This document shows positions 1 to 36,424 of a DNA stretch of 52,144 bases, piece after piece. The stretch covers positions 1 to 52,144 of IMG/VR virus record IMGVR_UViG_3300043435_000349; one strand, 5' to 3'. The translations under genes and the position numbers were made by a program. Below the pieces are notes generated by a model. It saw only the letters and a list, made by a program, of their open reading frames with translations, did not search any database and had not been told where the DNA came from. The DNA comes from a virus. Position 1 is the stretch's first letter, and each line of letters starts with the position of its first letter.

Positions 1-1
1 C

Positions 2-1158: not shown

Positions 1159-1209
1159 CCAATCAGACAAACAATGGTATCACAATTGTGGCAGAATGGC
1201 ATTTTTAGA

Positions 1210-1237
1210 TTGACATCTAGTGTCATTCTGTTACACT
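1210..1237 (+). promoter_or_regulatory. sigma70-like promoter for mazG-like/thyX/nrd operon
   Basis: A perfect TTGACA at 1210-1215 is followed after 16 bp by TACACT at 1232-1237. It lies in the only gap of this operon, 27 bp before the next start codon, which has an AGAGAGGA ribosome binding site. Confidence 0.7.
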
Positions 1238-1263
1238 AACTGCCAGACAGAGAGGAATCATTC

Positions 1264-3026: not shown

Positions 3027-3027
3027 T

Positions 3028-3213
3028 ATGAATTACAAACCGGAAGATATGGTTGTGACCATTACACTACCAGACGGAACAAAGCATGTTGTTGCTGGTT
3101 GGGCTGACCCTTACCAAAACACAATGTGGCCTGAAAAACCTTACCGAACAGAGGTGTCCGGCACTTGGAATGTTGAGTTATACAAGGAAGAAGAAGATGA
3201 GCAAGAAGGTTGA
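3028..3213 (+). CDS. unknown small protein
   Basis: This is a 61-residue protein beginning one base after the thyX stop, with a GGAGG ribosome binding site overlapping the thyX end. It has an acidic C-terminal tail (EEEDEQEG). No domain is recognised. It overlaps the next gene by 17 bases. Confidence 0.6.
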   Translation: MNYKPEDMVVTITLPDGTKHVVAGWADPYQNTMWPEKPYRTEVSGTWNVELYKEEEDEQEG

Positions 3214-3577
3214 TATGCCAGTGTATGTGAGCTTTGCTGACTTGGAGTTGGTGAAGCCACTGGTTGATACGGAGGGCGTTGAATACGTTCTTCATCATGT
3301 GTTTGGGTTTGACAATGAACGTGTCCTACCCAATGACTATTTAGATGGTCAGTTGTTGAGTGAGGGCGGGAATTTCTTCCATGTTGCTCATCAACACCAT
3401 CGTAGTCGGCAAGGAAAGATTGTAGAAGGGGATAGGTATTGGGGTTGGGAGCGTTCAGACAATGAATGGCTCAAAAGCAACATCTGTTCTGATGAGATGA
3501 AGTTGTTGTCCAAAGGTGATCAGTCTTTGGTTGATGAGGTGATGGCATTGAGTAAACGTGCGGGATGGGTGGGATGA
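3197..3577 (+). CDS. unknown protein
   Basis: The protein has 126 residues from the ATG at 3197, preceded by AAGGAAGAAGAAG. A His-rich patch (HVAHQHHRS) is visible near residue 65, but no family is recognised. Longer upstream starts in this frame would overlap the previous gene without a ribosome binding site and were not used. Confidence 0.6.
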   Translation: MSKKVDMPVYVSFADLELVKPLVDTEGVEYVLHHVFGFDNERVLPNDYLDGQLLSEGGNFFHVAHQHHRSRQGKIVEGDRYWGWERSDNEWLKSNICSDEMKLLSKGDQSLVDEVMALSKRAGWVG

Positions 3578-3771
3578 TGAGTAAAAAGAAGGTTGTTGTG
3601 AAGGTTGATGTCAAGCTACTGGGGGAGCGGATGCAATCATACCTTGATCAAAACATCAGGGGTTTCGGGTTTGAAACATTGGATCAACAAGAAGGGGTGT
3701 ACTCCGATCTGTACCGCTGTCTCGAAAGTCACATCATGAGTTATGTGGACATTGAGGTGGTTGATGATTGA
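3577..3771 (+). CDS. unknown small protein
   Basis: The protein has 64 residues from the ATG at 3577; the ATG at 3574 is equally possible, with GGGTGGG just upstream. It begins with a basic, valine-rich stretch (MSKKKVVVKVDVK). It overlaps both neighbours by a few bases. Function is unknown. Confidence 0.55.
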   Translation: MSKKKVVVKVDVKLLGERMQSYLDQNIRGFGFETLDQQEGVYSDLYRCLESHIMSYVDIEVVDD

Positions 3772-3940
3772 CGTAAGCAAGCTCCGCATCAAGGTGCGTG
3801 ATACTGAGATGGAGGCTGAGTTTGTCAAATGGTTGACAGACAATGCTCGTAATTTTGAGAGTGAGCAAGATGCGGTTGATGAAATGAATTATTGGGTTAA
3901 TAATAATGTTGGGCGGTTTATGGAAGTGGTGGTAGAGTGA
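3764..3940 (+). CDS. unknown small protein
   Basis: This is a 58-residue acidic protein whose ATG at 3764 has GAGGTGG upstream. It overlaps the preceding stop and the following nrdB GTG start. No domain is recognised. Confidence 0.55.
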   Translation: MIDVSKLRIKVRDTEMEAEFVKWLTDNARNFESEQDAVDEMNYWVNNNVGRFMEVVVE

Positions 3941-4941
3941 GTGCACGTAAGATTACAGACGACTACTTAGGATATGAATTTGCATATCCTGAAATTTTAG
4001 AGATTTCAGATAGGCAATTAAAGGACAACTTCTGGCACTCATCGGAATACGATGTGAGTTTGGATAAGCTGGAATTGCGGTATGATCTTGATGCTGGTGA
4101 ACAACACTTTGTCCTAAAAACACTCCCCCTGTTCCTTCGGTACGAAATGTTTGTTGGTTCGTTCTGGACAGATGTGTACCCAAAGCTGTTTAAAGCTCCA
4201 GAGTGTCAAGAGCTTGCTTCTGTTATCAATATGGTTGAGCGGGCAATTCATAGTCGATTCTATCGGCAAATGAGTGAAGCTCTTGAGTTGGACAATGATA
4301 CACACTTTCTTGACTTCTTGAATCACCCAGAACTCAAGAGTCGTACAGAGAAGTTGGGCAAGTGGTTGCATGGTGATGATCCTATCAACACCTGTCTTGC
4401 TTACAGTGCTGTTGAGGGTGTATTTTTGTTTGCCAATTTCTTGGGGCTTCGTAGCTTCCAGATGAATGGAAACAACAAGATTCCTGTGGTCGTGCGCGGC
4501 ACAATTCAATCCTCAATTGATGAGGATCTGCACTCTGTTGCACTGACAACCTCAATCAACATCATGTATCGAGAGCTTGGCACATCCCTGCTTGAGGATA
4601 CTGAGCGATATGCAGGTTTCTTGGAGTTGCTTGCTGATGGTTATGTGCATGAGTGCTTGATTATTGATAGCACTGTACCAGAGGGTGGCTTGAACGGAAT
4701 CACTCGTGATGAATACAAAGACTACGTTGCGCACCGGATCAATCTGCTACTTGCTCGATATGGTTGCGATAAGCTATTCCCAGAGGTAAGTAGTAGAATC
4801 GGCACTGAGTTTGAGGGTGGCATCAAAGGCTTTAAGATGGTTGATTTCTTCACTTCTGGAACTGGAAGTGAGTACCAAGACGACACAGGTGCTTTTGAGT
4901 TTGAACAAGCAATATTGAGAATGGAGAGTGTGGATGGTTAA
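3937..4941 (+). CDS. nrdB: ribonucleotide reductase class Ia-like small subunit (R2)
   Basis: This is a 334-residue R2 protein with a GTG start that overlaps the previous stop. R2 holds the di-iron/tyrosyl radical cofactor used by NrdA to reduce ribonucleotides. Seen here are the helix-B acidic residue in LRYEMF, the HSRFY block giving the His ligand and radical Tyr (spacing H+4 as in E. coli H118/Y122), the AVEGVF glutamate, and the DEDLH block (ExxH) for the second iron site. The first glutamate is four residues before its histidine (ERAIH) instead of three, an apparent one-residue insertion. The gene order nrdB-nrdA is reversed from the usual. It overlaps nrdA by 8 bases. Confidence 0.92.
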   Translation: MSARKITDDYLGYEFAYPEILEISDRQLKDNFWHSSEYDVSLDKLELRYDLDAGEQHFVLKTLPLFLRYEMFVGSFWTDVYPKLFKAPECQELASVINMVERAIHSRFYRQMSEALELDNDTHFLDFLNHPELKSRTEKLGKWLHGDDPINTCLAYSAVEGVFLFANFLGLRSFQMNGNNKIPVVVRGTIQSSIDEDLHSVALTTSINIMYRELGTSLLEDTERYAGFLELLADGYVHECLIIDSTVPEGGLNGITRDEYKDYVAHRINLLLARYGCDKLFPEVSSRIGTEFEGGIKGFKMVDFFTSGTGSEYQDDTGAFEFEQAILRMESVDG

Positions 4942-6682
4942 TGCGGTAGAGAATGCCCTGTCTGTAGAGCGTAAAGCTCTACAAGCGGCAGGTGAAGTTC
5001 CTGAGTGGTACACAACAGGTGGTTGGCAGTTATTCAAAAACAAATACAGCTATCATGGTGAGTCGGTAAAGAGTCGGTTCAAAACTATTGCCGATAGCTT
5101 GGCTGCTGATGCACCGAATGTGTATCCTTCTTGGTGGAATGTTGACCAGTTCACTGTGGGAAAGACATGGGGTGATGTATTCTTTGAGGTGTTATGGAAT
5201 GGCTGGGTTGTCCCACCAACACCATTGTATAGTAATGGCGGATTACCTGAGCGTGGACATACGGTAAGTTGCTCTCAGACATACATGGGTAACAACCTGT
5301 TTGATCGCTACAACCTAATGACCGAGCTTGCTGTCCTCACAAAACATGCCGCTGGATGTAGTGTTGATTTGTCCGAATGGCCTTGTGAGGGTCAGGCTCT
5401 GCCGCGTGGTGGTCGATCAGAAGGTATCATGCCAATTGTTCGTGACATTCTCACAACAATGAATGAGGTGGCACAGACCAACCGTCGTGGCAGCACAGCG
5501 TATAGTGTGAATGCAAGACATGGCGATTACTACAAGGTTCTTGAGGAGCTTTATCACAATCCTGAAAGCAACAATGTTGGAATCATCCACGATGATCAAG
5601 AGATCAAAGACATCTGGATTAACAAAGAGCCTAGTGCGGTAAAGCGTTTCGCTAAACTTGCAGAGGTTAAAAAAGCTCGTGGTAAAGGCTATATAACCAA
5701 GATTGACCACATCAATCGAAAACTTGCTGAACCATTCAAAAGGCTGGGTATGACAGCAAAGGCATCCAACCTCTGCCAAGAGGTTATGTTGCCAGTGGAC
5801 GCTGACCACACCTACTCATGTGTTCTTTTGAACTACAACTTACACAAGATGGATGAGTGGCCTGAGCATTTAGTATTCATTGGTCAGGTGATGTCTGATT
5901 GCAACATTACACAGTACCTTCGAGCATTGGATAATGTCAGTGAAAATGACAAGAAGGTGTTGCAGAAGATCAAACGATTCACTGAGAAGTTTCGTGCGCT
6001 AGGTAGTGGTGTTATGGGGCTTGCGAGTTGGTTTCAGAAGAAGTCAATTGTGTGGGGTAGTTTGGATAGCTTCTATGAGAATGGTCGCATCTTCAAGCAT
6101 CTAAACAAGCAATCCCTTGAAGCATCCAAATGGCTTGCTGAGGTGTTGGGCGAGCCAGAGGGATGCAAAGGTTTTGGTATCCGCAATGCAACCCGCCTGT
6201 CACTACCACCTACGAAATCCACTGCTGAGCTTTGTTACGGTGTGAGTGAGGGGATCAACCCTGATGCTGCGCTTGTGTTCACCAAGATGTCCTCCGGTGG
6301 TGAGGTGTTCAGGATTGTACCTGAATTGCTCAAATTGATGAAAGAGCGGAATGTCTATAATGACGATGTTCTGCAATCAATCAATGAACACAAGGGTAGT
6401 GTGCAGCATGTTGACTGGCTAGATGAACATGAGAAGAAAGTTTTTAGAACGGCTTTTGAGATTGATCAACACGCAATTGTGAGGTTGGCAAGTCAGCGAC
6501 AGAAAGAGGTTGATCAAGGGCAGTCCTTAAACTTCTATTTTGCTGGTAATGCAACACCAGAATACCAGTTGTCTGTTTACCGCGAAGCAATGCTTGATGA
6601 TGAGATTTTAACAGTCTATTACAGCTACAGCACTCGTGGTGGCGACTTCAAACAACCTGAACCATGTGAGGTCTGCACCTAA
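4934..6682 (+). CDS. nrdA: ribonucleotide reductase class Ia-like large subunit (R1)
   Basis: This is a 582-residue R1. Catalytic features are all present: Cys113 (HTVSCSQ), the NLCQE block with N279, C281 and E283 for thiyl radical chemistry, Cys296 (YSCVLLN) as redox partner, the radical-transfer Tyr pair 562-563 (TVYYSYS), and a C-terminal CEVC pair for thioredoxin/glutaredoxin re-reduction. At 582 residues it is much shorter than cellular NrdA (about 760). The N-terminal ATP-cone that gives dATP shut-off is missing, so the phage enzyme probably escapes dATP inhibition. The ATG at 4934 has GGAGAG five bases upstream; a GTG at 4928 is the alternative. Confidence 0.95.
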   Translation: MVNAVENALSVERKALQAAGEVPEWYTTGGWQLFKNKYSYHGESVKSRFKTIADSLAADAPNVYPSWWNVDQFTVGKTWGDVFFEVLWNGWVVPPTPLYSNGGLPERGHTVSCSQTYMGNNLFDRYNLMTELAVLTKHAAGCSVDLSEWPCEGQALPRGGRSEGIMPIVRDILTTMNEVAQTNRRGSTAYSVNARHGDYYKVLEELYHNPESNNVGIIHDDQEIKDIWINKEPSAVKRFAKLAEVKKARGKGYITKIDHINRKLAEPFKRLGMTAKASNLCQEVMLPVDADHTYSCVLLNYNLHKMDEWPEHLVFIGQVMSDCNITQYLRALDNVSENDKKVLQKIKRFTEKFRALGSGVMGLASWFQKKSIVWGSLDSFYENGRIFKHLNKQSLEASKWLAEVLGEPEGCKGFGIRNATRLSLPPTKSTAELCYGVSEGINPDAALVFTKMSSGGEVFRIVPELLKLMKERNVYNDDVLQSINEHKGSVQHVDWLDEHEKKVFRTAFEIDQHAIVRLASQRQKEVDQGQSLNFYFAGNATPEYQLSVYREAMLDDEILTVYYSYSTRGGDFKQPEPCEVCT

Positions 6683-6713
6683 TCTGGTGTGGCGCAACCA
6701 AAGGAGCAACACA

Positions 6714-6938
6714 ATGGAAAACCAACACCGCAAGATCACAGGCTACCGTGAGCTTTCCCAAGAGGAAATCAACACAATGAATGCAATCAAAAGCCAAGGA
6801 CAAGCTCTTGATGCTCTTGTGACAATGATTTCTGGAATTGAGAATGTTGACGGACGATGGCTTGACATCGGAACAACACAGCTACAACAAGGCTTAATGG
6901 CTCTGACAAGGGCTGTTGCACAACCTACGACATTCTAA
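6714..6938 (+). CDS. acb2: Acb2/Tad1-hairpin family anti-CBASS protein
   Basis: This 74-residue protein closely follows the Acb2 (T4 Vs.4-like) pattern: HRKITGYRELSQEEINTMN at the N-terminus, an IKSQGQAL helix, DGRWLDIGTTQLQQGLMAL, and the typical end RAVAQP. Acb2 proteins form hexamers of helical hairpins that sequester cyclic di- and trinucleotides and so block CBASS (and some other cyclic-nucleotide) defences. The assignment is from memory of the family consensus. The start has AAGGAGC seven bases upstream. It is the last gene of the nrd operon, just before a strong terminator, and is expected to be made early. Confidence 0.85.
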   Translation: MENQHRKITGYRELSQEEINTMNAIKSQGQALDALVTMISGIENVDGRWLDIGTTQLQQGLMALTRAVAQPTTF

Positions 6939-6943
6939 ACTAA

Positions 6944-6970
6944 AGGCTGCCTTCGGGTGGCCTTTTTATT
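6944..6970 (+). terminator. rho-independent terminator
   Basis: An 8-bp stem AGGCTGCC / GGTGGCCT (two G-U pairs) with a TTCG loop is followed by TTTTTATTT. It ends the mazG-thyX-nrdBA-acb2 unit. Confidence 0.85.
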
Positions 6971-7005
6971 TGCCTAAAATAATGCAAAATTTATCAGAAG
7001 GTGTA

Positions 7006-7034
7006 TTGACACCAACCTCTATTTTCGTAATAAT
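7006..7034 (+). promoter_or_regulatory. sigma70-like promoter
   Basis: TTGACA at 7006-7011, a 16-17 bp spacer, then TAATAAT at 7028-7034. It sits between the acb2 terminator and the next gene. The sequence after the -10 (ATGACCTCAAAC) resembles the initiation region of the promoters at 20154 and 29991. Confidence 0.75.
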
Positions 7035-7061
7035 GACCTCAAACCAAACAGGAGATGTGCC

Positions 7062-7799
7062 ATGAGTTTTCAAGTAAACAAACCGGTGAATGCCACGGTG
7101 TTTAACCCGCTAGGCTTACCAAACTTTCGTCAGGGGGTTGAGGTTTCCGTGTGGCGTGGGGCTACATCTGTAAATAAATTACTTTGCAAAAGTAATGGTA
7201 TGACAGCAGAGATCCCAACATGGAAGATTCTGCCACAGATGTCTGGGTTGCGCTCAAGATACTTGGTTAGTAGTGATGTACCTGCACCATTAGCCTACAA
7301 TCATATTGTAGTTACTGACTGCCGACATGAGCAGTTTGGTAAGGTCGGGAAGATTGTAAACCGATTCTCGAAGGATAGTTTTGATGTGATCATGTTTGCG
7401 GATGAGTCGCGCTACACTTTCAAGACTGGTCAATACAGTACGATCCGTGACAGAGATCGACTATTTGATTACGATGTATTCAAGAATGAAAGGTCAGACA
7501 TTTATGTTGATCTGGATGCGGATACACCGAAAGAAGATTTGGGCGAGGTTGTTCAGGAAGACCTGATTGATGAGCAGCCTGTGAGGAAGCAAGTTGAGCT
7601 GGATGAGCCTGTTACATACAAGATTCAGTATGTAACATCTGATGGGGAGTCATTTAACACCATCTTTGAGGTTAATCAGTACATTGACGAGCAGAACAAA
7701 CAGCGACTGCGCCAAAAGAAAATGGTGTTACTCAAAGCCATGGCTCAAGAGGTGGGGCTTGAGTTTGAGGTGGATGGGTCATCAATCATCCTGAAATAA
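7062..7799 (+). CDS. unknown protein
   Basis: This is a 245-residue protein with an AGGAGA ribosome binding site. It forms a single-gene transcription unit with its own promoter and terminator. The first 150 residues look beta-rich. A stretch around residues 150-190 is strongly acidic (DLDADTPKEDLGEVVQEDL). The C-terminal 50 residues are predicted helical (EVNQYIDEQNKQRLRQKK). No family is recognised. The isolated unit and promoter type suggest early expression. Confidence 0.65.
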   Translation: MSFQVNKPVNATVFNPLGLPNFRQGVEVSVWRGATSVNKLLCKSNGMTAEIPTWKILPQMSGLRSRYLVSSDVPAPLAYNHIVVTDCRHEQFGKVGKIVNRFSKDSFDVIMFADESRYTFKTGQYSTIRDRDRLFDYDVFKNERSDIYVDLDADTPKEDLGEVVQEDLIDEQPVRKQVELDEPVTYKIQYVTSDGESFNTIFEVNQYIDEQNKQRLRQKKMVLLKAMAQEVGLEFEVDGSSIILK

Positions 7800-7804
7800 G
7801 ACAG

Positions 7805-7830
7805 AGCAGCCTTCGGGCTGCTTTTCTTTT
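7805..7830 (+). terminator. rho-independent terminator
   Basis: A perfect 7-bp stem AGCAGCC / GGCTGCT with a TTCG loop, then TTTCTTTT. Confidence 0.9.
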
Positions 7831-7866
7831 ATGTGAAAATAAATATAAATAATCCTTGTTTCATTG

Positions 7867-7895
7867 TTGACAACCAATACAGCTTCCACTACTAT
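7867..7895 (+). promoter_or_regulatory. sigma70-like promoter
   Basis: TTGACA at 7867-7872, 17-bp spacer, TACTAT at 7890-7895. It would drive the unit 7933-10893. Confidence 0.75.
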
Positions 7896-7932
7896 GAGAA
7901 ACACAACGAGGTGTTGTATTTGGAGAGGTGAA

Positions 7933-8262
7933 ATGACTGACCAAGCAAATAAAGCTGTGATGGAATCGGTGATTGAGTGGTGTGATAGTGTTCTCAGTGA
8001 CATTGAGAATGTTGAGTATCGCAATGCTGGCGTATGTAAACATGTTTGGCAGATCACAGAAGGTCTTGATGATCTACCATCATATTCTGCAATCCAGCGT
8101 ATCATCAGAGCTTGGCCTGAACGTGGGACATCTAGTGTGTTTCCTGTAGAAGGTGAGGAAGTGTACATGCCAAACAAAGACAAGTGGGTGGGTGAAATTG
8201 GAGCTAAGCGTTTACGCCTAGTAAAACATATTCGTGATGCGTTGTTGGGAGAAGTGGTATGA
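7933..8262 (+). CDS. unknown protein, paralogue of the 10280-10627 gene
   Basis: This is a 109-residue protein whose ATG has GGAGAGGTG upstream. Its C-terminal half (a VEGEEV patch, then DKWVGEIGAKRLRLVKHIRDAL) is clearly related to the product at 10280-10627 (GGEIEW, then DKWRGESLRLRLDLVRHIRD). Both begin with a helix containing a WC pair. No known domain is recognised. It starts an operon of overlapping small genes. Confidence 0.65.
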   Translation: MTDQANKAVMESVIEWCDSVLSDIENVEYRNAGVCKHVWQITEGLDDLPSYSAIQRIIRAWPERGTSSVFPVEGEEVYMPNKDKWVGEIGAKRLRLVKHIRDALLGEVV

Positions 8263-8507
8263 AGATTGAGCGTGGTGTGATGGTGATGAAGGGCGGGAAG
8301 GCTTGGGGTAAAACTTGGGATGATGGGTATTCAACATCTTATGGTTGGGTGTGCGCAGAGGATGCCCCGATACACGACCCCACATCTTGCAAGAAACCGA
8401 CAGATGTCACATACAAGGGTAGCCACTACACAGCGGAGCTAAACACTGGTAAGTTGGTGATGGTTGAGCGTCGCACAGAGGTAGTTGTGTTGGAGAATCT
8501 TCAATGA
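8259..8507 (+). CDS. unknown small protein
   Basis: This is an 82-residue protein coupled to the preceding gene by an ATGA overlap and rich in Gly, Trp and Tyr in its first half. No domain is recognised. Confidence 0.55.
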   Translation: MKIERGVMVMKGGKAWGKTWDDGYSTSYGWVCAEDAPIHDPTSCKKPTDVTYKGSHYTAELNTGKLVMVERRTEVVVLENLQ

Positions 8508-8707
8508 ACTTCGATGATCTGAAAATCGGAATGCTTGTATGGCAAGGACATAACCCATGTAAGGATTATGTTGTCCACAGTCTTGACAAATTAGATGAGA
8601 TGGTGGGGTTGCGTGAAGTGGGTTGGGATGGTAAGATAGTTGAACGAATTGGGCTGAAATGGGTTAGTCCAGATCGGCTAATGAAAGCAAATGTTTTGGA
8701 TGAATAG
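8504..8707 (+). CDS. unknown small protein
   Basis: This is a 67-residue protein coupled by an ATGA overlap. The pattern FDDLKIGMLVWQG, with a later GLKWVSPDRL, looks like a small SH3-like or beta-barrel fold, but this is only an impression. Confidence 0.55.
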   Translation: MNFDDLKIGMLVWQGHNPCKDYVVHSLDKLDEMVGLREVGWDGKIVERIGLKWVSPDRLMKANVLDE

Positions 8708-8719
8708 GGGGAGAGCAGT

Positions 8720-9019
8720 ATGAAATCAATGTTGTTAGGTGTGTTGTTGGTGGTGTCAGCATGTGCAGATGCAAAATCATCCTCGTCTTCTAGTCGTAGC
8801 ACAAGTTACAAGAGCAGCAGCCATAAAAGCTCAAGCTCTACACGAACTTCTGTTCGACCAAAGACTAAGACACAGGTGGTGAGTGTTCGTCAGATAACAT
8901 CTCGTTGTTCTGGTATACAAGCCCCATTCGTTGAATATGATCGTAGTGATCGTGAGTGGGAATATGAGTGTCCAACAGGGCGTAAGATGAATCGTTTTGG
9001 TCGGTGTGAGTGCAAATGA
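8720..9019 (+). CDS. secreted Ser-rich protein, possible lipoprotein
   Basis: This is a 99-residue protein preceded by a strong GGGGGAGAG site. It has a signal peptide (MKSMLLGVLLVVSACADA). The VSAC box around Cys15 fits lipoprotein signal peptidase II, and an ADA/K site is possible for signal peptidase I. The mature part begins with a long Ser/Lys/Arg-rich low-complexity linker (residues 20-45) and ends in a compact domain with four further Cys (SRCSG, YECPTG, GRCECK). The product should reach the periplasm or outer membrane, where superinfection exclusion is one plausible role. No family is recognised. Confidence 0.65.
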   Translation: MKSMLLGVLLVVSACADAKSSSSSSRSTSYKSSSHKSSSSTRTSVRPKTKTQVVSVRQITSRCSGIQAPFVEYDRSDREWEYECPTGRKMNRFGRCECK

Positions 9020-9020
9020 A

Positions 9021-9230
9021 ATGATGCTTGATACGATTGTAACCGCGCCACTTGAGCGCAAGATCGCAACACTAGAATCTTGTGTTGTTGACCTTGAGGC
9101 TAAGCTGGAATACATGAAGGTTCTTGCTGCTGCCGATGGACAGCGTATTGCTGAACTTGAACAAGAGGTGAGTGGCTTGCGCTCAAAATGCAACGATTTT
9201 GATGGTGATGGTTTTCGGGAGTATGATTGA
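9021..9230 (+). CDS. small coiled-coil protein
   Basis: This is a 69-residue protein starting two bases after the previous stop. Residues 12-55 show a heptad pattern (LERKIATLE, VVDLEAKLEY, IAELEQEVSGL) typical of a coiled coil. The tail is acidic (DFDGDGFREYD). Two Cys residues flank the coil. Function is unknown. Confidence 0.55.
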   Translation: MMLDTIVTAPLERKIATLESCVVDLEAKLEYMKVLAAADGQRIAELEQEVSGLRSKCNDFDGDGFREYD

Positions 9231-9231
9231 A

Positions 9232-9834
9232 ATGAAGAAGGTGTTTATTGAAATCACTAACGAGGTTAGTGTCGCTGACGCGGTACTCCACCTTGAGGGT
9301 CTTGGTTATGAACAAGTGTGGCCGAAAGATTTTACACCAGAAGGCATGGCTACTACTATCACAGGCGACAGCGAGGGAGAAATTGGCTGGTGTAAAGATC
9401 GTAGCTGGGCTTCTGATCATGGCTACGAACGTATTGAACTTCCGACAACCAAACACAAGCACTACGACCTGATTGTCAAGTGGGCTGCTGATCCAAGTCA
9501 GAAGGTTTGGTACTACAATGGTAGTGGATGGTTCTTGTCAGTGATCGAACCTGTGTGGAATCCTGATTACACTTATCACATCGGTGACACACCACCAAAG
9601 AAACAAATCAAGATTGGTGGTGTCTGGATTGATGAGCCTGTGCGAGAGCCTCTGTCTCAGCGACAAGAGTATTACACCACAATTATCACTTATGATAACT
9701 TGTTCATGAAATCTCGTTGGGATGGTGGAAATGTGGATCTTGTGCGACTAAAACGTGGCCTAGTCCACTTGACAAAAGAAGCAGCAATAGCTCATGCTAA
9801 AGCTCTTATTGCATTGACGGGAGAATGTGAATGA
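9232..9834 (+). CDS. unknown protein with phage 'W...YHI' domain
   Basis: The protein has 200 residues from the ATG at 9232, with GGGAG ten bases upstream. The ATG at 9223 is too close to that site. The middle part (residues 80-125) carries the motif IVKWAADPSQKVWYYNGSGW, then VWNPDYTYHI. This resembles a small domain common in phage hypothetical proteins (aWa-G-x-vqyr, followed by YRI). The C-terminus (HLTKEAAIAHAKALIAL) is helical. No biochemical role is known. Confidence 0.6.
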   Translation: MKKVFIEITNEVSVADAVLHLEGLGYEQVWPKDFTPEGMATTITGDSEGEIGWCKDRSWASDHGYERIELPTTKHKHYDLIVKWAADPSQKVWYYNGSGWFLSVIEPVWNPDYTYHIGDTPPKKQIKIGGVWIDEPVREPLSQRQEYYTTIITYDNLFMKSRWDGGNVDLVRLKRGLVHLTKEAAIAHAKALIALTGECE

Positions 9835-10010
9835 GGGCTAGGTGGGAGATCCATTCTCTCGGTGTGATGCACTCAGGGTATGTCGATGTGGATGATGAGC
9901 TTGATGAAGATGGTATCCAATCCGTCCTGCAAGAGGCTATGGTGGACTACATTGAAGGTTGCTTGAATGGGTTTGATGAAATGGTGATGGTGATGAGGAT
10001 GATGCAATGA
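9831..10010 (+). CDS. unknown small protein
   Basis: This 59-residue protein is coupled to its neighbours by ATGA overlaps on both sides, which strongly supports its being real. It is acidic in the middle (DVDDELDED) and Met-rich at the end (EMVMVMRMMQ). No family is recognised. Confidence 0.6.
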   Translation: MRARWEIHSLGVMHSGYVDVDDELDEDGIQSVLQEAMVDYIEGCLNGFDEMVMVMRMMQ

Positions 10011-10198
10011 CAGAGACAATCTGCCGATACAAGGTGTGTGTAGGTTATCACAAAGGCAAGACAGGGTGGTGTGACGCTGACTACTCAAATGATATGGGGT
10101 ATTGGCTTCGCCTGTTCCTTGTGGATGGGAGCAGGATGTGGTGGAAATCTAGTGAGCTTAAATTGATTGGAGAGGAAGATTATGCCGATGATGCCTGA
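10007..10198 (+). CDS. unknown small protein
   Basis: This is a 63-residue protein with an ATGA overlap with the preceding gene. It contains YKVCVGYHKGKTGWC and SRMWWKSSELKLI, suggesting a small beta-barrel domain. Function is unknown. Confidence 0.55.
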   Translation: MTETICRYKVCVGYHKGKTGWCDADYSNDMGYWLRLFLVDGSRMWWKSSELKLIGEEDYADDA

Positions 10199-10286
10199 TT
10201 GGAGGGTGTGGTACATGATAGCATTGTGCCTAGCTTGTTGTTTTATTCTTTGGTGGGATGGCTTTATTGAGGTGATGTTATGGTGA
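10182..10286 (+). CDS. tiny single-span membrane peptide
   Basis: This 34-residue reading frame has an AGAGGAAG ribosome binding site and overlaps both neighbours by a few bases, as is usual in this operon. One hydrophobic helix is visible (MIALCLACCFILWW), flanked by charged residues. Role is unknown. Confidence 0.5.
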   Translation: MPMMPDWRVWYMIALCLACCFILWWDGFIEVMLW

Positions 10287-14641: not shown

Positions 14642-15292
14642 TCACGGGGTGATTTCCCAATTCATCAAAGACTCATAAACGGCTGGCCTCAAGACATCTT
14701 TGTATTGATTGGCTACAGCTTTGATGTATGCTTCCTTTGCTGTCTTGTATGCCATTGATGTTTGTTCCACACTTGGGTATTGACCAACAGTGGTAAGTTT
14801 TCCACCAACTCTGATATGCCCCTGAAATGAGTTGTCTCTCCTGTTGTAGCTTACCCCATTGGGCAGCCCATTGTGGAGGTCATCGCAGCCTACAATCAAT
14901 GAGTTGATTGCTTGCGGTACTAATGCACATGTTTCTGCGGAATATAGTTTTCTGCCACGCCCAAGAATGTCTTTGTCAAGTTCAAGACCATAAGGCTTGC
15001 CGGAATACTCAACCTCTCCGTTTATCCACTGCAAAAAGCTGGCAAATGAAAGCCAATCATCCGAACATGTAACATCCAAATATCTCGGATACTTTGCCTT
15101 GAACCCATTGTTAAAGCACCTGTGAAGCATCGACAGCCACAACACATATTGCCAACAGTTTTTTCCCTCATCGACCCATATTTTGAAGTTGACATCGTTA
15201 TAACCATGACCCTGAACTGTCGGTGGAACAACCCTACGCTCAACACTCACCAACTGATCAATCTCAGCCTGACTAAGTTTTAACTTCTTCAT
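14642..15292 (-). CDS. HNH/AP2-like homing-type protein (copy 1)
   Basis: This is a 216-residue protein. It shows the block order of a phage homing-endonuclease-like family: a WQYVLWLSMLHRCF region, SDDWLSFASFLQW, then LDKDILGRGRKLYSAETC, VPQAINSLI, and a C-terminal AP2-like DNA-binding stretch with GVSYNRRDNSFQGHIRVGGK and YKTAKEAYIKAVA. The classical H-N-H residues are not all evident, so nuclease activity is uncertain. It is a paralogue of the gene at 17768. The ATG at 15292 (GGAGGGG upstream) matches the paralogue's start. It overlaps the helicase-like gene upstream. Confidence 0.7.
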   Translation of the reverse strand: MKKLKLSQAEIDQLVSVERRVVPPTVQGHGYNDVNFKIWVDEGKNCWQYVLWLSMLHRCFNNGFKAKYPRYLDVTCSDDWLSFASFLQWINGEVEYSGKPYGLELDKDILGRGRKLYSAETCALVPQAINSLIVGCDDLHNGLPNGVSYNRRDNSFQGHIRVGGKLTTVGQYPSVEQTSMAYKTAKEAYIKAVANQYKDVLRPAVYESLMNWEITP

Positions 15293-16518
15293 AACCCCTC
15301 CAACCATTCTCTCAAGAGTTTTTCCATCCTACTACTAAAAATGCAAACGTGCATCACTTCCCCATTACGGATACACCCACGCCATAGCCACTGAATCATC
15401 TCTGACAATGCAAACACATCTGTCTTGACGGGACAATCCCAATCTTGTAGGTAGGATGCCACAGCAACATTAGTATGCCGATTATAACAATGCATCATAT
15501 GTGTAACATGTGCGTGGTCGTTTGTCGCCCTTGTTGATGCAGCAAGCCAGCAGGGAAGTCCATTAGGCTTGATTGTATAACCAACAGGCTTAATCTTCTC
15601 ACTCTTTGCGGCAGATGCACAAGACCTGTATTTAGGGAACGTGTACAACACATTTTCCGATGACACGCCCCAATTCCGGCATGCCCTCAATATGGCGTTC
15701 TTAACCACATTCAGATCACCTTTCATCGGATTCATGTACCACGAATAGGTGAGCTTGTTCCGAAGATTGAAATTCTTAGGTGGTGGGGTGACCACTAATA
15801 GCTCACGCATCTTGTCGCCACAAATCCTCTGTAGTGCCAAAGGCTCTGCAAATGGGATGCTTGTAAACCCTTTGAGCTTGAGGAAGCTGTCTAGGATGTT
15901 ACCCTCAAACAAATAGGTGAGGATGATTACACGCTTCGCACTCTCAAGCAGCTTTGATGGTAGTTGTACAGTGAGCATGGTGTCACTACGCTTGGTTGTG
16001 TACAAACACCCACTATTGCACATCTGACGCAATCGGTAGTATTTATGAGAAGGACAGGCCACCTCAACAGACTGATTCACCCATTCAACCATGCCATCAT
16101 TCTCACCGATCTTGATGAAGCCTTCTTTGATCAACCACTTTAAATCCTCAATTGAATAATCATTGAATGCTTCAATCAGACCAATTTCCTCATCCACCAC
16201 GACAATGTAATCGTGTTGTTGAATGGCTTCAAAATGCTCATCAGTCATCAGTTTGTATAGGCTGTGTGTGCATGACACATTAGCACCAGCTTTCAGAAGC
16301 TCAAGCATAGCACCACTCTTACCTTCACCACTATCTTCTGGTGAATGGAACTCAACATTTCTGACAGCCTGATGCAGTCTACCACCACTCTCAACCTCAC
16401 TCAATAATGGTGACACATAGATATACCTCTGGTGGTAGTTGGCATCAATCCACTTGATGATGCTGCTGCTCTTACCAGACCCCATGATGCTATCAACAAT
16501 CTCAACAACCTTTCCCAT
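15289..16518 (-). CDS. P-loop helicase-like protein (copy 1)
   Basis: This is a 409-residue protein. The Walker A motif is at residues 11-18 (IMGSGKSS), then YIYVSPLLSEVE, a TH block (SCTHSLYKLM), and Walker B DEE (YIVVVDEEIGLIEAF). Near the C-terminus is QWLWRGCIRNGEVM, resembling helicase motif VI, followed by SSRMEKLLREWL. The motif order is that of SF2 DEAD/DEAH-type helicase-like phage proteins that are widespread but unstudied. It has a paralogue of 492 residues at 34946-36424. Its upstream region is the hairpin-rich non-coding stretch, so a role at a replication origin is conceivable but unproven. Confidence 0.75.
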   Translation of the reverse strand: MGKVVEIVDSIMGSGKSSSIIKWIDANYHQRYIYVSPLLSEVESGGRLHQAVRNVEFHSPEDSGEGKSGAMLELLKAGANVSCTHSLYKLMTDEHFEAIQQHDYIVVVDEEIGLIEAFNDYSIEDLKWLIKEGFIKIGENDGMVEWVNQSVEVACPSHKYYRLRQMCNSGCLYTTKRSDTMLTVQLPSKLLESAKRVIILTYLFEGNILDSFLKLKGFTSIPFAEPLALQRICGDKMRELLVVTPPPKNFNLRNKLTYSWYMNPMKGDLNVVKNAILRACRNWGVSSENVLYTFPKYRSCASAAKSEKIKPVGYTIKPNGLPCWLAASTRATNDHAHVTHMMHCYNRHTNVAVASYLQDWDCPVKTDVFALSEMIQWLWRGCIRNGEVMHVCIFSSRMEKLLREWLEGL

Positions 16519-16750
16519 ACCAACCTCTCAACCTGATTTGGGGCATATCATACACAACTACAGAGCATGGTATTGTTTCTTTATGTAACCGAAATCAACC
16601 ACAGCTAACTGGTGAAATTATTACTGGAAATGTTTAGATCATTTAGGACTCTATCTATAAGCAAAAAGGTAGAAAACTTTATACATTCAATAAGTTACAC
16701 AACAGAACGTAAAGCGTTTCTTTTACCTAATACACCAATATACCATATAT

Positions 16751-17499
16751 GTCATGTTGACATGACGGACAATTACACACAAGAAGATAGTAACAATGTT
16801 GTGTTGACACAACAGAAGTAATGGCTGGGTTAAGGGGACGCAGTCGCCCTTGCTGGGCGGCCAGTGCCGATTCTGTTTAAACATTCAAAAAGAAAACTAA
16901 AATCTTTTCCTGCCCTACAGGACTACTACTATGTGTCACCACATGAGAGATAACATTGTTGTGTTCCACAACAGCATGGTCATGTTGTAGGGCATGTTGG
17001 TCATGTGTACAGGCAATGCCTGTGATTAAAAGCAAGAGCAAAAGATCTTTTTTATTATTAAACAAGCCTACTGTAATAACACAACAGGTATGTGTGGTCA
17101 TGTGCCATGACAGAGGTGTTATCACCTTAGTGTCCCACTAAGAGATGGTCTGTTGTGTTGTCCCAAACGCAAGGCATTTGGGTGTAGTGTTACTACCATG
17201 ATGTACCATCATGTGATAAAGAATTGTGTAAACACAATGTAAACGATGAAATCTTGTGTGAATCAAGACGTGTCATATACATGACACAAGAGAATGTCCT
17301 TATGTGTTTGTTTCTTCTATGATGTTCCATCATGAGTTAGGTGGTTGTTTTTGTGTGTCACAAAATTGTGTTGGTGATGTTGTTGCTCGGCAACAGAGGT
17401 GGTGTCATTCTGACAGGATGTTGTCACTGTTGTGTTCCACAACGCTGGTAGTGATTGCAGCTTCGCTGCCTTCTTGTTGCCACCTAGAAGCAAGCTTCT
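16751..17499. repeat. array of about 20 short hairpins with 2-4 base loops
   Basis: Each element is a perfect or near-perfect inverted repeat with a 5-8 bp stem. Examples are TGTTGTG-TTC-CACAACA at 16957-16973, GTCATG-TGC-CATGAC at 17097-17111, CTTAGTG-TCC-CACTAAG at 17126-17142, CATGATG-TAC-CATCATG at 17197-17213, GTGTCAT-ATAC-ATGACAC at 17270-17287, TTTTGTG-TGT-CACAAAA at 17349-17365 and GCAGC-TTC-GCTGC at 17457-17469. The stem sequences differ, so this is not a simple sequence repeat; only GTTGTGTTCCACAAC occurs twice (16959, 17429). Eight of ten three-base loops read GNA on the minus strand. No equal-length spacing exists as in CRISPR. Confidence 0.85.
17037..17062. repeat. 26-bp dispersed repeat, copy 1
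   Basis: This is identical to 36790-36815. It contains the perfect palindrome AAAAGATCTTTT followed by TTATTATTAAA. The GATCTTTTTTATT part is close to the AT-rich 13-mer of gammaproteobacterial oriC unwinding regions. Both copies lie in non-coding DNA upstream of the two helicase-like paralogues. Confidence 0.85.
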
Positions 17500-17670
17500 G
17501 TGTTTCTGTTATTGTTGTAAGCTGTTGTTCTGTGGGGAATGAGGGTAGTGGGGATGGAAATCTTGTGGGGGTGTGGGGTCTGTGGGAATGCTGTTCTTCT
17601 GTGGTAGTGCGGTTCTTTTTGGTGTGGATCTTATTTTGTTATTGTTAGTTCTGTTATTGCCATTTAGTTC

Positions 17671-17742
17671 TTGACAAATCCCATAAAGATTTACAATGGA
17701 GCATGTACAGGTGTTGACTGTTGTTGTTTGTTCTGGTAGAGT
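17671..17742 (+). promoter_or_regulatory. two tandem sigma70-like promoters
   Basis: The first has TTGACA at 17671-17676 and TACAAT at 17692-17697 (15-bp spacer). The second has TTGACT at 17714-17719 and TAGAGT at 17737-17742 (17-bp spacer). Both precede the gene at 17768, which has a GGAGAG site. Confidence 0.55.
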
Positions 17743-17767
17743 GGTGGTTTAAATCTGGAGAGTTGTT

Positions 17768-18421
17768 ATGGGTAAGTTGAAGTTGTCACAACAGGAAATT
17801 GACCAGTTGGTGCTGGTGGAGCGAGTGGAGAGGAAATCTACAGTGTGTGGCGTTGGAGTTGTTGATGTGGTATTTCAACCCTCAATTAGAGGGAAAGTTA
17901 TCTGGCAATACGAGCTATGGAAGGGTGTTTTGAGGAGATGTTGCTCGGAAAAACTTAAAGCAAATCGACCTCACTATCGGGAGGCATCTATTTGTACGGA
18001 TTGGCTGTCTTTTGCAACGTTTTTCGAATGGGTCAATCTGGAGGTTGGGTACAAAGGAAAGCCTGTTGGGATGGAATTGGATAAAGACATTCTCGTTAAG
18101 GGAAATAAGGTTTATTCACCGACTACCTGCTGTTTTGTCCCATCACGGATCAATAAGCTATTGACCGACAGAAGATCACATCGTGGTCAATATCCTATTG
18201 GTGTAACGTTCAATAAAACAGGTGGTCGCCTAGCGGCATCCTTAAATTGTAATGGTGTGGATGTATTTCTAGGTTTGCATGATACACCAGAGGCTGCTTT
18301 CTTAGCCTACAAGACAGCAAAAGAGTCTTATGTTAAGGAAGTCGCAAATGAATACCGACATGCCCTCACATCAGAAGCATACACCGCACTGATGTCTTGG
18401 GAGGTGGATATTTCTGCTTAG
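17768..18421 (+). CDS. HNH/AP2-like homing-type protein (copy 2)
   Basis: This 217-residue paralogue of the 14642-15292 product has the same block order: KLKLSQQEIDQLV start, IWQYELWKGVLRRCC, TDWLSFATFFEW, LDKDILVKGNKVYSPTTC, VPSRINKLL, an AP2-like segment, and YKTAKESYVKEVANEYR. The two copies lie in opposite orientation on either side of the helicase-like gene plus hairpin array, as if flanking a mobile segment. Nuclease activity is not certain because canonical HNH residues are not all visible. Confidence 0.7.
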   Translation: MGKLKLSQQEIDQLVLVERVERKSTVCGVGVVDVVFQPSIRGKVIWQYELWKGVLRRCCSEKLKANRPHYREASICTDWLSFATFFEWVNLEVGYKGKPVGMELDKDILVKGNKVYSPTTCCFVPSRINKLLTDRRSHRGQYPIGVTFNKTGGRLAASLNCNGVDVFLGLHDTPEAAFLAYKTAKESYVKEVANEYRHALTSEAYTALMSWEVDISA

Positions 18422-20676: not shown

Positions 20677-21054
20677 CGTCTATTTGTCAGCCTTTCCATT
20701 AGACGTGTTTGGTGTTTGTCTCCCCAGTCATGCCGTGCTGTCCCCACTATAACTAATTTACCTATATTGTGTCAACAATAAGCCGACAAACGGCAACCGA
20801 GGGAATCAGCACCGAGACGGGTAGCCCCAGCTATAAGCCAGTAGCCCCAGAACGCTCTGGTTTGCGTTATACGCCGTTCTATTCGAGTCTGGTACAAACA
20901 TACAGGCATATAGGCTGGAAAGCCGTATACGACAATTTAGCTTTTTGAACAAATAATTGTTGACAATGTACTACCTGTATGCTACGCGCATACGCGCATA
21001 CAAATAAGACAAAACATAGCATCGAAAATAAATGCAAATAATTTAATAAAACGC
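20677..21054. other. non-coding stretch, repeats
   Basis: No gene is visible. It contains a CCGACAAACGGCA motif (20781), the string ACGGCAACCGAGGGA shared with 19959, a GGGTAGCCCCA string also at 20056, and GCGTTATACGCC (20867), which is the exact inverse of 20091-20102. A TTGACA at 20961 has no good -10. Confidence 0.6.
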
Positions 21055-21083
21055 TTGCATCATGTTTTTGTTTTGGATATAGT
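21055..21083 (+). promoter_or_regulatory. promoter, TTGCAT-17-TATAGT type
   Basis: TTGCAT at 21055-21060, 17-bp spacer, TATAGT at 21078-21083, followed by GGCTCTACCGGCTAGAG, a small hairpin at the predicted 5' end. The leader before the first gene is about 80 bases. Confidence 0.75.
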
Positions 21084-21170
21084 GGCTCTACCGGCTAGAG
21101 ACGATCTAGTGGGCAGTTAGACAAGGCAACAGACTAGCCTAAATAGTCGATTTTGAATACAGGTGCAATT

Positions 21171-21593
21171 ATGGCATTTTTAACAGTTAAACATTCAATC
21201 AGCAAGGCACAAGACACCTGCGGCTACAATCGTGTAACTCTGATTGATCAATCAACGGGCAAGCGTTATACATGTGTCGGTGGTGGATACGATATGCTAG
21301 GCACGTGCCTAGGTCAGTATTTGCAAGCTAATCACCAAGTGGAGTTGCTTGGTTTAGTTTGTCGTGCAAAGCAAGCGGTGACATTTGATGCTGAATCAAA
21401 CCGCTATCGGTTTACTGATAACCCTGTTAGTAGTGCGCTTTATGGCTTAACCTACAATGCAAAGCTTAACGCTATGCAATTGGACGGAGGCTGCGGTTTT
21501 GAATGTATGGTACGGATAGCGCGTGCAGCCGGTTTGACGGTGAATCTTCACCACGACAAGAAAGGCCGTTTGATCAATCTTTTTGTGGGGTGA
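21171..21593 (+). CDS. orphan protein
   Basis: The protein has 140 residues from the ATG at 21171, with AGGTG five bases upstream. The N-terminal half looks like a beta-rich domain (RVTLIDQSTGKRYTCVGGGY). The C-terminal half contains GGCGFECMVRIARAAGLTV. No known family is recognised. It is the first gene of a seven-gene unit of small proteins. A 16-bp perfect palindrome, CTAGGCACGTGCCTAG, lies within it at 21297-21312. Confidence 0.65.
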   Translation: MAFLTVKHSISKAQDTCGYNRVTLIDQSTGKRYTCVGGGYDMLGTCLGQYLQANHQVELLGLVCRAKQAVTFDAESNRYRFTDNPVSSALYGLTYNAKLNAMQLDGGCGFECMVRIARAAGLTVNLHHDKKGRLINLFVG

Positions 21594-21596
21594 ATC

Positions 21597-21785
21597 ATGC
21601 AGCTTGTCGGTTATGTATGCATCACAAGCAAAGGTCGATATAAGTATGATCGGCAATCAATGGAAAAAGCTTGTCGGCAATATGGCAAGTCTGGTTTATA
21701 TGAATCTGATTGTTTGTGGATTATTAAAGTCTGGAACAATCAGGGTAAGAGTGGCGGTTATTGTTACAAACCAGTCTATCGCTAG
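21597..21785 (+). CDS. orphan small protein
   Basis: This is a 62-residue basic, Tyr-rich protein starting three bases after the previous stop (GTGGGG upstream). The pattern MQLVGYVCITSKGRYKYDR, then KACRQYGKSGLYESD, is not recognised. Confidence 0.5.
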   Translation: MQLVGYVCITSKGRYKYDRQSMEKACRQYGKSGLYESDCLWIIKVWNNQGKSGGYCYKPVYR

Positions 21786-22676: not shown

Positions 22677-22859
22677 ATGGCTACACAATTTAGCGTAAGA
22701 CGCAATGTATACTACGCAGGCATGTTAGAATCATCGGACATTGTAGCGTCTGGTTTTGAATCGTACACAATGGCTGACTATGCATGCTACACTATTGCAA
22801 ACAACAGCCAATGTCTGTTAGAGTTTAAAGGTTGCCATATTGTTTTTAGTGTGGTGTGA
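22677..22859 (+). CDS. orphan small protein
   Basis: This is a 60-residue protein with a GGAG site seven bases before the start. It is the last clear gene of the 21171 unit. It contains FSVRRNVYYAGMLESSDIVA and CYTIANNSQCLLEFKGC, resembling a small beta domain. No family is recognised. Confidence 0.5.
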   Translation: MATQFSVRRNVYYAGMLESSDIVASGFESYTMADYACYTIANNSQCLLEFKGCHIVFSVV

Positions 22860-23040
22860 AGGCTGCACCCACCCCCACGATTCACAAGGCAAGCGTATAG
22901 CCTTTTTAATATGCGCATTTTTGGTGTGCTGGTGTTTATAGGTTTGAACGCACAAGCATGGGTAAGGTCTACCGTGTGCAAGTGGGATTCTTTGAGTTGA
23001 GACAGCACCCAATACAGGACATTTACTAACACAATCAATT

Positions 23041-23064
23041 AAGCCCCTTTACTGGGGCTTTTTT
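23041..23064 (+). terminator. rho-independent terminator
   Basis: A perfect 7-bp stem AAGCCCC / GGGGCTT with a 6-base loop is followed by TTTT. It ends the 21171-22859 unit. Confidence 0.85.
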
Positions 23065-23297
23065 ACGTCTATGCAAAAGCAATGCCAACTTTAAATGTCA
23101 AGTATTATTTGAAAAATGGCCTATGCCTCTAAATGCGCATAGAATCGCGTATACGCGCTTGTTTGCCTTTCTGGTACAAGTGGGTTAGAACATTCCCAGA
23201 GGGGCATTAGAGGCGAAATTACCGTTCATCGGGAAAACTTGACATTCTAAAAAATACATGGGTGAGAATTATGTTCTAATTGTCCGACGAACGGTAG

Positions 23298-34941: not shown

Positions 34942-34957
34942 GGCTTCAAAAGAAGCC
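34942..34957 (-). terminator. hairpin at gene end
   Basis: GGCTTC-TTTT-GAAGCC spans the stop codon of the helicase-like gene. No T-run follows, so termination is weak at best. Confidence 0.4.
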
Positions 34958-36424
34958 TTCCCAACTGATGACAGGCATTTCATTGTCCACACACTCAGAA
35001 ACGTATTCTGAGGGCAATTGCTTGTCAAAAACACAAGGGGCTTCAATAGTCCCGTCATCTTGTTCCCATCCATCCCAACATGTTGTCGGCATGTTCTTGT
35101 CAGCAGAAGGCTCTTTCACAGGGACATCCGCAACAGGGCTGTCAACAAACACAATGCCAAGATTTTCTGATGCCATTCTGTATGACAATGGGTTGCTAAC
35201 AACAAATTCGTCATTAAGCCAACGTTCAAACAGCTTGCGCATTCTTGGGGCTAAGATAGCCACAGTCATTGGTTCACCCTTACGGATACACCCACGCCAC
35301 AACCACTGCACTAGCTGAGATAGCGCATAATGATCACGATCAACCGACACCCCCATGTCCGTCAAATAAGCATCCACAGCACTGTTGGGGTGGACATCTA
35401 AAGCATAGACCATCACTTTCTTGTGGGCATACTCATTGGTAGCCCGACACTTCGGATAAATCCATGTTTCCCGACCCTCCTTATGCACCTTTCCGTTTGG
35501 CTTAATCAACCTGTTTTTCAATTCACCACGCCTAATTACAAATTCTTTTGGTAGTGAGAACCCACAATCCGCAGCATCATATGGTCGAAATATGTTTGAC
35601 AAAGTTCGCTCAACAGCCTGTATATCAGGCGACTTCATGTTTTTCCAAGATGTCTGTGTCAAGGACAACTTGTCATATGGTTTGTAGTAGGATTTTGACA
35701 CAGGCTCAATCAGGTGAGCCACACTACTAGGCAACACATCAGGAACGTCAACACCTGTAAACTCTATCCACTCAACACCATGTAAAGACAAGAACTGCTC
35801 AAGCAAACTACCCTTAAACATGTAGCTCATAATGATGACACGTCTAGCACACATCAAAACATCAACAGGCAGACAAGACACCACAAAGCCATTATATCGC
35901 TTGGAACTATACAACAAACCTTTCCCACACATCTCCTTGACCTCCGTGTACATGACCTTCTGTACAGTGGAAGCATCATGAAATGTCAACCTGCCATTTG
36001 TGTCATCACGCGACAAGTGACCATTGTCAAACAACCAAAGCATATCTCTAGGTGGGACATCTCGGAAGGCTTCAATCAAACTCACTTCTTCATCCAACAC
36101 GATGGTATAGCCGAGTTGCTGAATCAACTTCCAATGACGTTCATCACAAGTTTTCAACAGAGCATGTGTTGTAGCAATGTTTTCCCTTCCAGACAACAAT
36201 AACAACATGTCCTCTGCCTTAGAGGATCGCCATTTATCACCATCTTTAAACACCAACCGCTCTGGACACTTAACAGCAAGGTCTGGCCTTACAGCATTGA
36301 TCCTTTCTTCTGCTTCACTGAGCAATGGGGTGACAAAGATAAATCGCATCTCTGGTTTTAGCCACTGTAAAATGGCATTAGTCTTACCAGCACCCATCAT
36401 CCTGTCTAACACTTCAACTTTCAC
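34946..36424 (-). CDS. P-loop helicase-like protein (copy 2)
   Basis: This is a 492-residue protein paralogous to the 15289-16518 product along its first 400 residues: Walker A RMMGAGKT (8-15), FIFVTPLLSEAEERI, ATTHALLKTC, Walker B TIVLDEEVSLIEAF, SKRYNGFVVSCLP, CRATNEYAHK, and QLVQWLWRGCIRKGE (motif VI-like). It carries an extra C-terminal region of about 80 acidic residues with PTTCWDGW and PVISWEGFF, absent from copy 1. The two may be partners or act at two sites. Its upstream non-coding DNA contains the same 26-bp repeat as copy 1. Confidence 0.75.
   Translation of the reverse strand: MKVEVLDRMMGAGKTNAILQWLKPEMRFIFVTPLLSEAEERINAVRPDLAVKCPERLVFKDGDKWRSSKAEDMLLLLSGRENIATTHALLKTCDERHWKLIQQLGYTIVLDEEVSLIEAFRDVPPRDMLWLFDNGHLSRDDTNGRLTFHDASTVQKVMYTEVKEMCGKGLLYSSKRYNGFVVSCLPVDVLMCARRVIIMSYMFKGSLLEQFLSLHGVEWIEFTGVDVPDVLPSSVAHLIEPVSKSYYKPYDKLSLTQTSWKNMKSPDIQAVERTLSNIFRPYDAADCGFSLPKEFVIRRGELKNRLIKPNGKVHKEGRETWIYPKCRATNEYAHKKVMVYALDVHPNSAVDAYLTDMGVSVDRDHYALSQLVQWLWRGCIRKGEPMTVAILAPRMRKLFERWLNDEFVVSNPLSYRMASENLGIVFVDSPVADVPVKEPSADKNMPTTCWDGWEQDDGTIEAPCVFDKQLPSEYVSECVDNEMPVISWEGFF

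Follow-up and report, generated by a model that had tools for sequence, protein, structure and literature searches.

The injection stop signal of bacteriophage T5 is made up of repeats, inverted repeats, palindromes and DnaA boxes that are thought to form secondary structures, and the mechanism by which DNA entry pauses after the first step is poorly understood (PMC13250531). In the T5 record it is annotated at 9140-10149, at the inner edge of a terminal repeat that spans 1-10219. Small DNA hairpins also serve as the promoters of the N4 virion RNA polymerase (vRNAP), which need a C-G pair to close the loop (PMC4496689), and in herpesviruses the HSV OBP is an SF2 helicase whose C-terminal DNA-binding domain binds a hairpin whose loop is three nucleotides long (PMC12543377).

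Here we analyse an array of mini-hairpins in the window, by which we mean the whole 52,144-nucleotide stretch of tailed-phage DNA under study (IMG/VR record IMGVR_UViG_3300043435_000349). Like the N4 promoters, it consists of DNA hairpins of 5-7 bp with 3-nt GNA loops on one strand, but N4 has three single sites and the window an array. Like the herpesvirus OriS/UL9 system, it brings together an SF2 helicase and noncoding DNA that can form hairpins with 3-nt loops, although OriS contains one 12-bp hairpin with defined boxes and the window array about 18 different stems. The array is real: it is structured DNA, and elements of its kind recur at or near the ends of phage genomes and next to SF2 helicases.

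Organisation of the array

The array lies in a 1.25-kb stretch without convincing genes, with a minus-strand gene on one side and a plus-strand HNH gene on the other, and its placement between divergent genes (15289-16518, minus; 17768-18421, plus) in the initial annotation holds. The features of the region are as follows.

15289..16518, minus: SF2 helicase-like protein of phrog_2467, related to SPbeta YonV
16749..17499, unstranded: array of about 18 perfect mini-hairpins that do not overlap (stems of 5-7 bp, loops of 3-5 nt)
16751..16766, minus: hairpin GTCATG/CATGAC, 4-nt loop (alternative 16749-16763, 3-nt loop)
16797..16814, minus: hairpin TGTTGTG/CACAACA, 4-nt loop
16931..16944, minus: hairpin, minus-strand loop GTGA
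16957..16973, minus: hairpin TGTTGTG/CACAACA, minus-strand loop GAA
17009..17023, unstranded: hairpin ACAGGC/GCCTGT, loop AAT/ATT
17023..17066, plus: AT-rich element GATTAAAAGCAAGAGCAAAAGATCTTTTTTATTATTAAAC, 32 bp of which recur (94%) at 36787-36818
17097..17111, minus: hairpin GTCATG/CATGAC, minus-strand loop GCA
17126..17142, minus: hairpin CTTAGTG/CACTAAG, minus-strand loop GGA
17197..17213, minus: hairpin CATGATG/CATCATG, minus-strand loop GTA
17223..17238, unstranded: hairpin ATTGTG/CACAAT, 4-nt loop
17270..17287, unstranded: hairpin GTGTCAT/ATGACAC, 4-nt loop
17319..17333, minus: hairpin ATGATG/CATCAT, minus-strand loop GAA
17349..17365, unstranded: hairpin TTTTGTG/CACAAAA, loop TGT/ACA
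17381..17395, minus: hairpin TGTTGC/GCAACA, minus-strand loop CGA
17403..17415, minus: hairpin TGTCA/TGACA, minus-strand loop GAA
17429..17443, minus: hairpin GTTGTG/CACAAC, minus-strand loop GAA
17457..17469, minus: hairpin GCAGC/GCTGC, minus-strand loop GAA, the sole C-GNA-G (N4-type) closing pair
17486..17499, unstranded: hairpin AGAAG/CTTCT, loop CAAG
17531..17620, plus: G-rich tract, 6 runs of at least 3 G in 120 bp
17768..18421, plus: HNH endonuclease of phrog_953, the nearest plus-strand gene on the right of the array
34946..36424, minus: second YonV-like paralogue; its noncoding upstream region has the shared 32-bp element and no array

An inverted repeat is present at all 20 positions listed in the initial annotation, most of them perfect with a stem of 5-7 bp and a loop of 3-5 nt; the weak members are 17162 (6 bp, 9-nt loop), 17252 (5 bp, 7-nt loop) and 17114, whose repeat overlaps the one at 17126. 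The near-identical 32-bp element (17034-17066 and 36787-36818) lies in the noncoding regions beside both YonV paralogues, and the core of the AT-rich element, TTAAAAGCAAAAG, recurs with 0-1 mismatch in the arrays of phages BS46 and Phab24.

Hairpin excess and strand bias of the loops

The number of hairpins was compared with that in 1000 dinucleotide shuffles of 16700-17520. With stems of at least 6 bp and loops of 3-4 nt, counted without overlap, 13 hairpins were observed against 0.7 ± 0.8 expected and a maximum of 4 in any shuffle, a density far above that of dinucleotide-matched sequence. Relaxing the stem to at least 5 bp gave 18 against 2.4 ± 1.5 (shuffle maximum 8), restricting the loop to 3 nt with stems of at least 6 bp gave 10 against 0.35 ± 0.58 (maximum 3), and stems of at least 7 bp numbered 6 against 0.2 (maximum 3). 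The array is by far the densest hairpin site of the 52 kb, with 13 per 800 bp, the next-densest 800 bp holding 3 (loops of 3-4 nt) or 5 (loops of 3-5 nt). The hairpin array in the window is confirmed as real.

Among the triloops on stems of at least 5 bp, 14 including two overlapping alternatives, the GNA sequence occurs in 8 on the minus strand and in none on the plus strand; the earlier figure of eight out of ten was thus slightly generous, while the strand bias itself and the rest of the earlier description of the hairpins were right. When all loops that begin with G and end with A are counted, the minus strand has 9 of 20 (1.1 expected, p = 6e-7) and the plus strand 0 of 20, a definition that was widened post hoc and whose fair test is replication in other phages. 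The proposal that a structure matters here, and in one strand, is supported.

The adjacent helicase gene and arrays in other phages

The protein encoded at 15289-16518 carries the motifs MGxxK[ST] (Walker A), DEE, RATN and QxxWRxxIR, and its AlphaFold2 model (pLDDT 89.7) matches XPD, RecQ and DinG with TM-scores of at most 0.54. The motifs, the model and these matches show an SF2 helicase fold for the predicted structure, with the Walker A motif, the DEAD/DEE box and motif VI of the superfamily. Its relatives in phrog_2467 occur in phages of Acinetobacter and of other hosts; among them is YonV of the SPbeta group, a member of the same protein family whose function the papers found do not describe. 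Unlike the window, phi3T has no dense array that we could see upstream of YonV. A single-sequence query of viral contigs returned no close relatives of the window protein, and the search for close DNA relatives of the array region in phages gave one short, marginal match.

We scanned the regions upstream of 33 YonV-like genes for mini-hairpins, and BS46 was added afterwards. Clear enrichment was seen in 4 of the 33, namely the window, contig G001 (L022; 18 hairpins in 1.5 kb against 1.7 expected), contig G002 (L034; 7 against 1.7) and phage B9 (9 against 1.8), and in each of these the genome-wide peak of hairpins is the region upstream of the YonV-like gene. BS46 has 8 hairpins at the same place against 1.5 expected, and in vB_AciJM_313 an array lies near the terminal repeat. 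Hairpin peaks in contigs G008 (20951) and G019 (45251) were left out of the count as coding- or intron-like sequence; at about 20951-21750 the G008 contig has hairpin-rich insertions in its terminase region that look like self-splicing introns. The arrays associated with YonV are mutually unrelated in sequence, and the YonV-like proteins beside separate arrays are 25-30% identical. An array is missing from most YonV phages, and even G005, with a YonV 74% identical to the BS46 protein, has none; the pairing thus recurs without being obligatory. A pattern search for further homologues of the AciJM_313/G007 (L018) array, and a search for those of the neighbouring protein, found none.

The BS46 array recurs in Phab24, where it is followed by an unrelated SF2 protein (DEAH, TATP, QxxGRxR) with a Walker A that lacks the usual lysine (TGCGAT); YonV was not found in Phab24 (absent from all 15 Acinetobacter matches). 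The C-terminal domain of the Phab24 protein shows 48-52% identity with a part of the gene that follows yonV in B9, Ab5, Ab7 and phiAB441, in which, by eye, this accessory domain is joined to a GIY-YIG-like domain. Since one array is accompanied by two different SF2 proteins with a common accessory domain, the data suggest that array and helicase are functionally paired. The Phab24-type protein is also present, without the array, in ET-ABTNL-9 and G009. The uncharacterised SF2-like family comprises L146:5896-7761 (Phab24), L147:2504-4324, L078:13846-15657 and L121:3780-5585 (minus), and a GIY-YIG-like domain with the accessory domain is encoded by L003:6874-7620 (AB9_155), with related genes after yonV in G001, W03 and W04.

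Conservation of the stems and the nature of the folded strand

Compensatory changes were sought in the arrays of the relatives. The BS46 and Phab24 arrays are 88% identical, with 0 of 126 aligned bases changed in stems and 40 of 532 outside them (Fisher 2.5e-4), and the sole loop change, GTTTA to GATTA, preserves the terminal G and A. G007 and AciJM_313 have five collinear orthologous hairpins in common; four changes in them are two-sided and compensatory, and none affects one side alone. Stems within one array differ from each other and keep their complementarity; a plain array of operators was ruled out because the outer stem positions vary and yet remain complementary.

In six arrays taken together we counted 53 perfect stems where 7.3 were expected, 13 stems with a single internal G-T pair (11 expected) and 17 with a single A-C pair (10 expected). 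About one in ten pairs in RNA helices is G-U, and many more wobble stems would therefore be expected if the arrays acted as RNA. Both strands of the window array are exceptional in their folding as ssDNA (z = -5.4 for the minus and -7.0 for the plus strand); the RNA fold stands out less (z = -2.5). Loops with a terminal G and A on the strand of the helicase sense make up 9 of 20 in the window, 5 of 10 in G002, 6 of 11 in BS46 and 3 of 10 in B9, against about 0.05 expected per hairpin, and the G001 and AciJM_313 arrays have no such bias. The Watson-Crick stems, the folding scores, the strand bias of the loops and the conservation favour DNA over RNA as the functional form, so that of the earlier alternative of ssDNA or RNA the DNA half stands and the RNA half is disfavoured.

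Position at genome ends and comparison with T5

The terminal repeat of B9 is 4,915 bp long and its edge (88727 in the GenBank record) falls inside the array region, within the 14-mer TAAGGTGATTAACA. With at most 1 mismatch, this 14-mer occurs once in the sequence searched of each of B9, Ab5, TaPaz, phiAB441, BS46 and Phab24, always in the corresponding noncoding region. In AciJM_313 the main array lies about 1.2 kb beyond the 6,437-bp terminal repeat, and more copies of one array element are found upstream of its yonV. The window array lies at the place that corresponds to the B9 array, because the gene orders agree: ribonucleotide reductase, minus-strand YonV-like gene, plus-strand genes, minus-strand PhoH and ClpP, terminase and portal. 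The window's own genome end would thus presumably be at the array.

The T5 stop signal resembles the arrays in being about 1 kb of noncoding DNA with mini-hairpins, iterons and a G-rich tract. We counted 6 mini-hairpins in T5 9140-10219 against 1.1 expected, and the same interval holds the largest G-run cluster of the genome (9995). The iteron ATGAGAATCATT is common to the T5 signal and the arrays of G001 and G007, and the motif ATGAGAAT is concentrated in these places, with 4 of its 14 occurrences in the 111.5 kb of T5 searched (p = 8e-6), 4 of 9 in G001 (p = 4e-6) and 7 of 17 in G007 (p = 2e-5). The arrays thereby link the T5 signal to unrelated phages through common iterons and layout. The window array shows the excess of inverted repeats and palindromes that marks the T5 type. 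Unlike the T5 signal it has no ATGAGAAT iterons, and a search of the window array for DnaA boxes (TTWTNCACA) found none; for lack of both it is not assigned to the T5 type as a member and is regarded as working most like one. The genes that flank the T5 signal are convergent and those of the window array divergent, and T5 has no match to YonV. The maxima of G-runs lie next to the arrays in G001, G007 and AciJM_313, and in T5 the hairpin maximum is loosely adjoined by one; elsewhere, including in the window, the G-run maximum of the genome is not beside the hairpin maximum, and the G-rich clusters of AM24, VH-8 and G005 come without arrays. Because the two maxima seldom adjoin, we treat the G-rich tract as the weaker feature, in the window too.

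Proposed role and alternatives

Our preferred reading, a tentative one to which we give somewhat less than an even chance, is that the array may be a genome-end control region of the T5 injection-stop type, in which hairpins stage DNA entry or replication together with the helicase. We infer both the staging role and the formation of hairpins in vivo. The array would be a noncoding control element between the SF2 helicase gene and the block of plus-strand genes, a block that probably corresponds to the early genes of the relatives' terminal repeats. If the region became single-stranded, through resection or unwinding, or negatively supercoiled, one strand would fold into a row of mini-hairpins with loops that can close by a G.A pair, next to the G-rich tract. 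Such folded DNA would most likely form a roadblock, and also a landing platform, where the terminal repeat has its inner edge, much as the T5 stop signal does, and the roadblock would stage entry or first processing of the remaining genome, with the adjoining SF2 helicase as the probable enzyme acting on it. Against this stand the clear enrichment of no more than 4 of the 33 YonV upstream regions and the lack of a G...A bias in G001 and AciJM_313.

Staging of entry is preferred with an origin of the OriS/UL9 kind a close second, and sequence alone does not separate them. Single-strand initiation of replication, one of the roles in the initial annotation, is a possibility in view of the SF2 helicase gene beside the window array and of the different SF2 helicase beside the Phab24 array. 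That the array is a replication origin, its hairpins and repeats being landing sites for the adjacent SF2 helicase or a primase, is possible but unlikely: the helicase gene adjoins, Phab24 couples the same array to a non-orthologous SF2 helicase with the common extra domain (added at the C-terminus, as in UL9), every array is noncoding with locally repeated 8-mers, and HSV OBP sets the precedent of an SF2 helicase that binds a hairpin with a 3-nt loop (PMC12543377), but the GC skew of whole genomes shows no turn at the arrays, no replication gene is evident nearby, many YonV phages lack the array, and in sequence neither of the two helicase profiles matches an origin-binding protein of solved structure or any other solved chain, with no sequence relationship to the UL9 system found. 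A site of packaging or terminal-repeat formation, with hairpins on either side of the terminase cut that protect or prime the ends, would suit the B9 array, which straddles the repeat edge at the conserved 14-mer, and BS46, where the strand of the G...A loops switches across the 14-mer so that both sides run 5' to 3' towards it, a pattern noticed after the fact and contradicted by one B9 hairpin; the distance of about 1.2 kb between array and repeat edge in AciJM_313, and the repeat edge of D'Alembert, which has no array, make it improbable.

Action of the hairpins in a transcript, as a leader or sponge RNA, is decidedly improbable. It would account for the GT-rich, nontemplate-like skew of the plus strand over 17200-17900, for promoter-like repeats directed, by eye, into the AciJM_313 and G007 arrays and for the RNA fold (z = -2.5), but the DNA folds are more exceptional and an Rfam search gave no match. 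The protein-sponge RNA of the initial annotation is disfavoured by the lack of any excess of stems with internal G-U pairs, which number 13 where chance gives 11; perfect stems number 53 where chance gives 7. We consider it very unlikely that the array is a mutational by-product without function, left by template switching that perfects quasi-palindromes where DNA is often single-stranded; perfect but mutually different stems in noncoding DNA are what this would leave, yet it does not predict the strand bias of the G...A loops, the two-sided compensation or the unchanged stems. Least probable of all are hairpin promoters for an N4-type virion RNA polymerase, another of the roles suggested earlier. 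Stem length and GNA triloops resemble those of N4 (PMC4496689), but the loop-closing pair is mostly G-C, reversed from the C-G of N4, which is found at 17457 alone, and the roughly 18 differing stems share no start-site motif. Searches that detected the N4 control found no relative of the vRNAP core in the window's 52 kb, in B9 and AciJM_313, both complete, or in the contigs G001, G002 and G007, and PF00940 and vRNAP searches of the array phages returned nothing but a sub-cutoff stretch of AciJM_313 that is riddled with stops. For the complete relatives B9 and AciJM_313, N4-type promoters are effectively excluded, and the suggestion is unsupported for the window.

A broader form of the preferred reading is possible though doubtful. 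In it, strand-specific arrays of hairpins with G...A loops, diverse stems and conserved pairing would be a recurring class of genome-end elements where a neighbouring SF2 helicase stages entry or starts replication, one element being able to pair with different helicases and the T5 stop signal being one instance. The arrays beside helicase genes in the cultured phages BS46, Phab24, B9 and AciJM_313 offer testable DNA structures together with a candidate enzyme.

Other repeated elements at the phage ends

A promoter-like repeat of 90-110 bp (by eye, TTGTAA, 17 bp, TATAAT-like) lies upstream of yonV and at the array edge, at 8129-8325, 84552-84676 and 84831-84943 of the AciJM_313 record and at 1519-1613 and 22698-23084 of the G007 contig. 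Clusters of a Fur-box-like motif (AAATGAGAATCATT) were observed in noncoding phage ends at 2700-3090 of L057 (G007), 9588-9710 of L148 (T5) and 3515-3800 of L022. A host regulator might bind these clusters or be decoyed by them, and a role for a host protein is possible because the ATGAGAAT iteron motif resembles a Fur box.
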